From Kordiimonadales bacterium IMCC3096 (GTDB lineage Bacteria > Pseudomonadota > Alphaproteobacteria > Minwuiales > Minwuiaceae), in NCBI GenBank assembly GCA_016865035.1, contig CP018227.1, forward strand, positions 186,001 through 250,000: a DNA stretch of 64,000 bases. Direction: 5' to 3'. A model generated the notes under the pieces. It was not told the origin of the DNA. It saw only the letters and a list, made by a program, of their open reading frames with translations, and made no database searches. Positions within the stretch are counted from its first letter, which is position 1, and each line of letters opens with the position of its first letter. Position numbers and translations under genes: made by a program. Below, one piece after another: positions 50,433-53,245 of the stretch.

Positions 50433-52109
50433 ATGGCCCACATGAGCGACATCGAAATTGCCCGCGCCGCCACCAAGCAGCCCATCCAGGCCGTCGGTGC
50501 CAAGCTGGACATCCCCACCGAGGCGCTGCTGCCCTACGGCCACGACAAGGCCAAGATCTCGCAGGACTTCATCGCTGCCCAGGCCGACAAGCCAAATGGC
50601 AAGCTGATCCTGGTCACCGCCGTGAACCCCACCCCTGCGGGTGAGGGCAAGACCACGACGACTGTCGGACTGGGCGATGGCCTGAACGCCATCGGCAAGC
50701 GCGCCGCGATCTGTATCCGCGAAGCCTCCCTCGGCCCCTGCTTCGGCATGAAGGGCGGTGCGGCTGGCGGCGGCTACGCCCAGGTGATCCCGATGGAGGA
50801 CATCAACCTCCATTTCACCGGCGACTTCCACGCCATCACCTCCGCGCACAACCTGCTGTCGGCCATGATCGACAACCATATCCACTGGGGCAACAGCCTG
50901 GGCATCGATGCCCGCCGCGTGGCCTGGCGCCGGGTGCTGGACATGAACGACCGCGCCCTGCGCGACGTGGTACTGAGCCTCGGCGGCATCGGCAACGGGT
51001 TCCCGCGCCAGAGCGGCTTCGACATCACCGTCGCCTCCGAGGTCATGGCGATCCTGTGCCTCGCCACCAATCTGGAAGACCTGCAGAAGCGGCTGGGTGA
51101 CATCATCATCGCCTACCGCCGCGACCGCACGCCGATCTACTGCCGTGACCTGAATGCGGATGGCGCCATGACGGTGCTGCTTAAGGATGCGATGCAGCCG
51201 AACCTGGTGCAGACGCTGGAGAACAATCCGGCCTTCGTGCATGGCGGCCCCTTTGCAAACATCGCCCACGGCTGCAACTCCGTCGCCGCGACCCAGACGG
51301 CGCTGAAGCTCGCCGACTATGTGGTGACGGAAGCCGGTTTCGGTGCCGACCTGGGCGCCGAGAAATTCATGAACATCAAGTGCCGCAAGGCCGGCCTGGC
51401 ACCGGACGCGGTTGTCATCGTCGCCACCGTGCGCGCCATGAAGATGAACGGCGGCGTCGCCAAGGATGATCTGGGTGCGGAGAACGTCGATGCGGTGAAG
51501 AAGGGCTGCGCCAATCTGGGTCGCCACATCGAGAACGTGAAGTCGTTCGGCGTGCCCGCTGTCGTCGCCATCAACCATTTCGTCGCCGACACGGATGCGG
51601 AGATCGAGGCGGTGAAGGCATTCGTCGAATCCATGGGTTCGGAAGCCATTGTCTGCCGTCACTGGGCCAACGGCTCCGCCGGCATCCTCGACCTGGCGCA
51701 CCGGGTGGTGGAGATCGCCGACAGCGGCATGTCCCAGTTCAGCCCGCTCTACCCCGACGAGATGCCGCTGTTCGAGAAGATCGAGACCATCGCCAAGCGC
51801 ATCTATCGCGCCGACGAGGTGCTGGCCGACAAGGCGATCCGCAACCAGTTGCGCAAGTGGGAAGCGGACGGCTATGGCCATCTGCCGGTCTGCATGGCGA
51901 AGACCCAGTACAGCTTCTCCACCGATCCGAACCTGCGTGGCGCACCGACCGGTCACTCCCTGCCCGTGCGGGAAGTGCGCCTGTCCGCCGGTGCCGGTTT
52001 CATCGTCGTCATCTGCGGTGAGGTCATGACCATGCCGGGCTTGCCGAAGGTTCCGGCAGCGGAGCAGATCATGCTGAACGACGCCGGGGACATCGAAGGC
52101 CTGTTCTGA
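50433..52109 (+). CDS. fhs: Formate-tetrahydrofolate ligase
   Basis: A 558-residue enzyme making 10-formyl-THF from formate, THF and ATP. The phosphate loop [33 protein letters not shown] and [15 protein letters not shown] are conserved blocks. It starts at ATG 50433 with GGGAG upstream; an internal ATG at 50442 is possible. With the upstream formate dehydrogenase it forms a formate-using block, and it supplies one-carbon units used, for example, by Fmt. Confidence 0.97.
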
Positions 52110-52150
52110 CCGCATCGTCCGCCAATGCTCCCGGCAGGTGGCTCACGGGC

Positions 52151-52231
52151 TTGACTGACGTCCCCACGGTGATAGGTCCTGTCCCACCCTGCACAGGGTG
52201 CGGGCCGGATCACGAGGGGGACGTCAGTCAG
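52151..52231 (+). promoter_or_regulatory. Strong RNA hairpin over the ribosome site of the ACR3 gene
   Basis: A 14-base-pair perfect inverted repeat, TGACTGACGTCCCC (52152-52165) with GGGGACGTCAGTCA (52217-52230), ends 4 bases before the ATG. Inside it GTGAT (52169-52173) can pair with ATCAC (52209-52213) and CACCCT (52185-52190) with AGGGTG (52195-52200), giving a nested fold. The only purine-rich ribosome site (GAGGGGG, 52214-52220) is inside the 3' arm, so translation should be blocked when folded. No known riboswitch class was recognised. Confidence 0.6.
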
Positions 52232-52234
52232 CCA

Positions 52235-53245
52235 ATGGGTATCTTCGAGAAGTTCCTGTCCCTCTGGATCGCGCTGGCAATGGTGGCCGGCATCCTGCTG
52301 GGCAATGTGACCCCCGGTCTGTTCGCGGCGATCGGCGCGGCAGAGGTGGCGAATGTCAATCTGGTGGTCGCCGTCCTGATCTGGGCGATGGTCTATCCCA
52401 TGATGGTCGGCGTCGATCCGAAGTCGTTGCGCGATGTCGCCCGACAGCCGCGCGGGCTGCTGATCACACTGGTGGTGAACTGGCTGGTCAAGCCGTTCAC
52501 CATGGCGTTGCTGGCCGTGCTGTTCTTCCAGCATGTCTTCGCACCCTGGATCCAGCCCGAGGACGCCATGCAGTACATCGCCGGGCTGATCCTGCTCGGG
52601 GCCGCCCCCTGCACGGCCATGGTGTTCGTCTGGTCGCAACTGACGCGCGGTGACGAGACCTACACGCTGCTGCAGGTATCCGTGAACGACCTGATCATGG
52701 TCGTCGCCTTCGCCCCCATCGTGGCGTTCCTGCTGGGTGTCACCGACATCACCGTCCCCTGGTCGACCCTGGTCCTGTCGGTCCTGCTGTTTATCGCGCT
52801 GCCGCTGGCCGCCGGACTGGTCACGCGTCGGAAACTGCGGACCCCGGCAAGGATCGAGGCGTTTCAGGCCCGGGTGAAACCCTTCTCCATCGTCGGCCTG
52901 ATCGTCACCGTGATGATCCTGTTCGGCCTGCAGGGGCAGGTGATCGTCTCCAGGCCGTTCGTCATCGTGCTGATCGCCGTGCCGATCATCCTGCAGAGCT
53001 ACAGCGTCTTCGCGATTGCCTATGCCGCAGCCTTCGCGCTGAAGGTGCCACACCGCATCGCCGCCCCCTGCGCCCTGATCGGGACATCGAACTTCTTCGA
53101 GCTTGCCGTCGCGGTCGCCATCAGCCTGTTCGGCCTGAACTCCGGCGCGGCCCTCGCGACCGTCGTCGGGGTACTGGTGGAGGTTCCGGTCATGCTGACC
53201 CTGGTGGCCTTCGCGAACCGGACGCGTGCCCGGTTCGCCCCCTGA
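52235..53245 (+). CDS. ACR3 family arsenite efflux transporter
   Basis: A 336-residue membrane protein with about ten hydrophobic helices. [19 protein letters not shown] holds the conserved ACR3 cysteine (about 126), and [21 protein letters not shown] with VLVEVPVML (Glu about 316) is the second signature. It exports arsenite by H+ antiport. No arsR or arsC is near; the only control element seen is the hairpin over its start. The start at 52235 lies after the fhs gene by 125 bases. Confidence 0.93.

Follow-up and report, generated by a model that had tools for sequence, protein, structure and literature searches.

A hairpin over the start of an alphaproteobacterial acr3 gene as a candidate insulator against read-through translation

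Inverted repeats near a start codon can block translation of RNA that enters a gene from outside, as in the fold-back inhibition of IS10. Two further systems come closest to the arrangement considered here. In T4, transcripts of I-TevI from upstream promoters fold into a stable structure that conceals the ribosome site, while the position of a late promoter keeps the structure-forming sequence out of the transcripts that it starts; soc, e, and others are also named as structure-repressed (PMC2988022). In Bacillus subtilis, sigG lies downstream of another operon. Its read-through RNA is proposed to be kept from translation by a hairpin of 20+ bp, which transcripts of the sigG promoter itself, given together with its start site, are unable to form (PMC5942855). 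The locus that we describe, in front of an arsenite exporter gene, would resemble I-TevI in pairing a start-hiding structure in upstream RNA with an own promoter that would skip it, here a predicted one. It differs in that the gene is a chromosomal arsenite exporter whose promoter-like site resembles the tRNA promoters of the same genome, and the resemblance would be a likeness of working, not of kinship. With sigG it shares a chromosomal gene behind another gene or operon and a hairpin proposed to act against read-through translation, although gene and phylum are unrelated and the promoter and start are predicted here and given there. Unlike IS10, where the repeats belong to a transposon end, no transposase is found among the neighboring genes identified here. 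Judged by titles and the beginnings of abstracts, one open-access library yielded no leader of this kind before acr3, which is not proof of absence. We propose, as a reading that is plausible rather than probable, that the hairpin is a translational insulator against read-through; promoter use, read-through, and the difference in translation are all things that we infer.

The window, the whole 64-kb stretch of DNA analyzed, belongs to a genome denoted G000, and G001 and G002 denote the two other species in which the hairpin occurs. In the window, fhs is followed after a 125-nt gap by acr3 on the same (plus) strand, with pcaC downstream on the opposite strand. The features are as follows.

50433..52109, plus strand: fhs, formate--tetrahydrofolate ligase (NF010030, 938 bits), the presumed source of read-through RNA
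52148..52233, plus strand: imperfect long hairpin over the leader up to the acr3 start codon (fold z −6.17; also in G001 and G002)
52151..52156, plus strand: putative −35, TTGACT, part of the best matrix site; TTGAC, the first five of these, does not vary among the three species
52152..52165, plus strand: 5′ arm of a perfect 14-bp inverted repeat (inverted-repeat scan)
52173..52178, plus strand: putative −10, TAGGTC, preceded by TGA, spacer 16 (matrix); TGATAGGTC is invariant in three species
52185..52186, plus strand: predicted transcription start, about 7 nt past the −10, deduced from the matrix site
52214..52221, plus strand: purine run GAGGGGGA in the 3′ arm, the sole ribosome-site candidate seen in the sequence
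52217..52230, plus strand: 3′ arm of the same 14-bp repeat (inverted-repeat scan)
52235..53245, plus strand: acr3, ACR3-family arsenite efflux transporter (TIGR00832, 385.7 bits)

The acr3 gene is genuine, its TIGR00832 (ACR3) score standing against a cut-off of 282.8 bits, and position 1 of that profile falls on ATG 52235, residue 29 in a longer frame. Among named genomes, the closest relatives of this ACR3 point to an alphaproteobacterium as the source. We considered whether that frame, open from TTG 52151, might carry an N-terminal extension of ACR3 through the hairpin and rejected this reading, because the profile begins at ATG 52235 and the length of the stretch varies, being less by 2 bases in G001 and by 4 in G002. 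An earlier note on this DNA, made from the sequence alone, had remarked that acr3 has no adjacent arsR or ars partner, and this holds: the neighbors are fhs and pcaC, and the genome has six HTH_5 matches elsewhere. A search for an intrinsic terminator (a G+C-rich stem with a T run) between fhs and acr3 found none in G000, where positions 52050 to 52300 were scanned, in G001, or in G002, so, as far as intrinsic termination goes, fhs RNA can be expected to enter acr3. The related genome G006, of the same genus as the window, has an acr3 that is 71% identical; directly before it lies a gene in which an ArsR-type helix-turn-helix is fused to a low-molecular-weight phosphatase (LMWPc, ArsC-like) domain (L010:2554-3405).

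The inverted repeat TGACTGACGTCCCC (52152-52165 and 52217-52230) was seen as the earlier note had reported it, perfect over 14 bp and separated from ATG 52235 by 4 bases, GCCA. It is listed first among the 13 inverted repeats of the window, stretches to 22 nt at 86%, and, beyond a bulged T, is lengthened by outer GGC/GCC pairs (52148-52150 with 52231-52233); its arms lie 51 bp apart and contain GACGTC, palindromic in its own right. RNA of positions 52140 to 52250 folds at −67.0 kcal/mol, compared with −42.9 ± 3.9 for shuffled sequences (z −6.17, equaled by 0 of 200 shuffles), and the further internal helices claimed before are present in that predicted fold. The window has a single perfect repeat of at least 14 bp with a gap of 3 to 80; a 400-kb portion of its chromosome has 10, of which at least 8 are copies of one unrelated palindrome family. 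Because such repeats are not rare in the genome, the rarity of the hairpin is weak evidence by itself; its place and its conservation in two other species appear to us the better evidence than the length of the repeat. The purine run GAGGGGGA, which the earlier note took for the ribosome site, does lie in the 3′ arm, but it is 13 nt from the ATG, a long distance for a ribosome site, and for that reason would be a poor one even when free.

The hairpin is found in three of the nine genomes of the order that we examined, G000, G001, and G002, always at the fhs-acr3 junction, and the leader is single copy in its own genome (BLAST, E 0.001) apart from its own reverse-complement match. Two further genomes, G004 and G005, have an acr3 that is 91% identical, located elsewhere in the genome and without the hairpin, and R1, a covariance model built from the three hairpin sequences, has no match in them. 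G004 has a repeat around TCATCCCGGACAAGCGCAGCGCCGATCCGGGAT, in two copies, just downstream of fhs (L120), no more than 320 nt past the stop of that gene, where G000 to G002 have acr3. With strict filters, R1 matched 2 of 385 genomes of the class, G000 and G002, which belong to the same genus as the window; that result does not name G001. The model also matches the reverse complement at the same place in G000, at 28.8 bits. Over the 108 loci of an acr3 search (L003-L110), its own three sequences score 96 to 111 bits, and the other 105 gave no convincing copy and two weak matches, L042 at 24.5 bits and L055 at 17.8 bits. The L042 match, from a Rhodobacteraceae MAG (L042:3841-3900), is a different perfect hairpin, GTAGGCCGGGCTTCAGCCCGGC with its complement, whose end lies about 100 nt before acr3; it is placed between acr3 and an aldehyde-dehydrogenase-like gene (named by eye) and resembles a terminator or a repeat. 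We take this match as a likeness of shape in other letters, not as the same element.

A generic leader element of acr3 genes was considered and rejected: when 104 acr3 leaders were compared by folding score, that of the window included, the window alone was extreme (z −6.95). In this ranking G002 stands third (−2.81) and G001 seventh (−2.25), neither of them outstanding, with L040 (−2.84) ahead of G002 and L089, L096, and L076 between G002 and G001 (−2.26 for the lowest-ranked). In stability the G000 hairpin greatly exceeds its counterparts in G001 and G002. The latter two share a conserved stretch before the hairpin (L005:1360-1400 and its L004 counterpart) with a GGTCC-NN-GGACC palindrome, which is not conserved in G000.

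A feature missed in the first reading is a candidate promoter within the 5′ arm. It emerged from a two-box promoter matrix learned from the leaders of 30 of the 42 tRNA genes of this genome, which describes TTG(A/C)C, a spacer of 17, and a TAT-like −10; because base-2 terms and a natural-log spacing term are combined in the score, it is given as log-odds, not bits. Within 150 nt upstream of acr3, the top matrix site of G000 is CTTGACT-16-TAGGTC, at 9.45; the aligned 5′-arm site is the best in G001 (8.69) and the second in G002 (8.38 versus 8.48 elsewhere). The site is weak, with a spacer of 16 against the preferred 17, and 23 of the 30 tRNA leaders score above 9.45 and 7 below; of 852 segments of 150 nt from the window, counting both strands, 2.7% reach that value, and a simple sigma-70 scan found no promoter before acr3. 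One tRNA leader of this genome (L151) has TGATAGGTT, and the site is like the housekeeping consensus of Caulobacter, TTGACGS-N10-14-GCTANAWC. All 14 promoter columns (TTGAC and TGATAGGTC) are invariant across the three species, in an alignment that varies at 26 of its 85 columns (post hoc hypergeometric P 0.0035); 4 of 14 spacer columns and 3 of 10 pairing partners of the −10 are variable. The bases TTGAC of the 5′ arm depart from the CTGAC that would mirror the 3′ arm exactly; G000 accommodates the difference with a bulge, G001 and G002 with a U-G pair. The promoter reading, made post hoc for a weak predicted site, is plausible. The earlier note had counted a transcript start inside the repeat against a regulatory RNA, and the sequence points to one, the best promoter-like site lying in the 5′ arm. 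With a predicted start near 52185, the gene's own RNA would be without the 5′ arm, and a promoter so placed would leave the hairpin to form in read-through RNA only.

Insulation would then work as follows. RNA reading through from fhs would contain both arms, form the long hairpin, and hide the acr3 start region. The promoter of acr3, with its −35 and −10 within the 5′ arm and upper stem, would give RNA from about 52185 that is without the 5′ arm, forms no hairpin, and is translatable. Read-through RNA would thereby be silent for acr3, and the pump's own RNA would be translated. Modeled folding is consistent with this at the start codon. Opening positions −20 to +6 would cost 31.4, 23.7, and 23.0 kcal/mol in the hairpin RNA of G000, G002, and G001, respectively, 31.3, 20.2, and 25.5 kcal/mol with 150 nt of upstream RNA, and 15.3, 12.7, and 13.7 kcal/mol in the own-start RNA, in which the modeled mean unpaired fraction of −10 to +6 rises to 0.51-0.54 in all three species. 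The purine run behaves differently: its modeled unpaired fraction passes from 0.24 to 0.26 in G000, from 0.45 to 0.20 in G002, and from 0.13 to 0.42 in G001. The modeled own-start RNA thus frees it in only one species of three, a result that counts against an insulator.

Whether the pairing is maintained among the three species was approached in several ways. In the three-way alignment, 91.8% of 98 cells are paired, compared with 25 to 52% when the partners are slid; column shuffles are not beaten, since 73, 200, 200, 49, and 59 of 500 reach the five pairing measures. Compensatory changes, on both sides of a pair, account for 2 of 33 pairs, and helix 2 is paired in 89.6% of cells, partly through G-U pairs. 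Random placement of the substitutions from G000 to G002 gave an expectation of 20.3 kept pairs against the 26 of 30 observed (P 0.001), and over the six ordered comparisons this test gave P from <0.001 to 0.112. Random placement is not exceeded from G000 to G001, whether in kept pairs (P 0.11) or in folding energy (P 0.58), and the folding-energy version from G002 to G001 is not significant (P 0.11). The evidence is weaker when the changed columns are held fixed and only the new base is redrawn (P 0.006, 0.032, 0.068, 0.074, 0.35, and 0.42). Hairpin identity is slightly higher than that of fourfold sites in acr3 for the same species pairs (88, 82, and 75% versus 80, 72, and 70%), and indels are confined to the loop or the 3′ arm, the apical loop being variable. 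Pairing is probably maintained, on modest evidence from three related sequences of one genus. The check by folding and covariation that the earlier note had proposed thus came out in part: the fold (z −6.17) and the presence of the repeat in G001 and G002 bear it out, but compensatory change is confined to 2 of 33 base pairs and does not beat the column shuffles.

The genus also carries a family of palindromes of about 80 bp, whose arms measure about 25-35 bp and whose loop, for example ATTTCAGGATACTTGCGT, occurs in either orientation; copies lie at L186:9285-9370, L186:14052-14133, and L186:14472-14552, with others (G000, 1.0-1.4 Mb). Matches over both strands number 79 in G000, 79 in G001, 81 in G002, 27 in G004, 6 in G005, 1 in G003, and 0 in G006. 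The outer arms covary strongly in the 32 copies that were aligned of 40 fetched, from which the family model was also made: 11 of 35 pairs are changed on both sides, and 0 of 500 shuffles come as high. In the stretch scanned against Rfam, tRNA aside, the family has only sub-threshold matches, mostly to microRNA families. The acr3 hairpin was considered as a copy of this family and rejected, as a default search with E up to 10 gave no match in the window. Template-switch correction can make imperfect palindromes perfect. Since the family palindromes stay matched here, the perfection of the G000 hairpin might reflect such correction instead of selection for tighter pairing.

Other readings of the hairpin have to be weighed against insulation. 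Somewhat unlikely, in our estimate, is an intercistronic stem-loop of an fhs-acr3 operon, in which acr3 would be translated solely from fhs read-through, with no internal promoter, and the hairpin would lower yield, protect the 3′ end of fhs, or be processed; the common strand, the 125-nt gap, the negative terminator search, the presence of the hairpin in three species, and the weakness of the promoter-like site agree with it, but it leaves the invariant TTGAC and TGATAGGTC with a variable spacer unexplained. The promoter-like site in the 5′ arm would suit a DNA-level control region, a regulator-bound promoter with flanking inverted repeats whose pairing in RNA is a by-product, and the palindromic GACGTC in the arms and the weak covariation point the same way. 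We nevertheless judge control at the DNA level to be unlikely, as the arms are 51 bp apart and the inner stretches are complementary and mostly paired (helix 2 as above), partly by G-U pairs that an operator does not need. That the hairpin has no function, being a relic of a mobile palindrome or an imperfect palindrome perfected in G000 by template-switch correction, is quite improbable: the same genomes do hold an expanded family of matched palindromes, and the G000 hairpin does exceed its counterparts in stability, but with filters off the family model scores the hairpin at 12.4-13.5 bits, whereas matches within the family score 56-113 bits, and the hairpin resembles the family consensus no more than pair-permuted controls do (P 0.18-0.38).

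The earlier note had suggested a leader that responds to a ligand or to temperature. Of its claims, the occlusion of the start region is borne out in silico; response to ligand or temperature is not supported. For such a leader speak the lack of an adjoining arsR and the position of the G006 acr3 behind the ArsR-ArsC-like fusion gene. Against an RNA thermometer, which we rejected, the modeled unpaired fraction of −22 to −1 stays nearly constant from 25 to 65 °C (0.17-0.18 in G000, 0.16-0.22 in G001, and 0.29-0.30 in G002). Against a ligand-binding class stand the variable apical loop, the two matched genomes among 385, both of one genus, and Rfam, which at the gathering score gives only the tRNA at 1209-1279 in the window and has its best sub-threshold match at the hairpin at 18.2 bits versus 63; the earlier note, too, had seen no match to ZTP, THF, or fluoride riboswitch features. 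A responsive leader is thus very doubtful, and slightly more doubtful again is a lineage-specific RNA that would sense arsenite or an fhs-linked one-carbon metabolite in place of ArsR, which appears to control acr3 in sister species such as G006.

If the hairpin is indeed an insulator against read-through translation, a resistance gene adjoining a housekeeping gene would be insulated at the level of RNA, and the same bases would serve as a promoter in DNA and as a blocking arm in read-through RNA. The signature to seek elsewhere would be a promoter within the 5′ arm of a start-occluding hairpin. For the organism, it would mean that an exporter without an adjacent ArsR can stay silent despite transcription from upstream.
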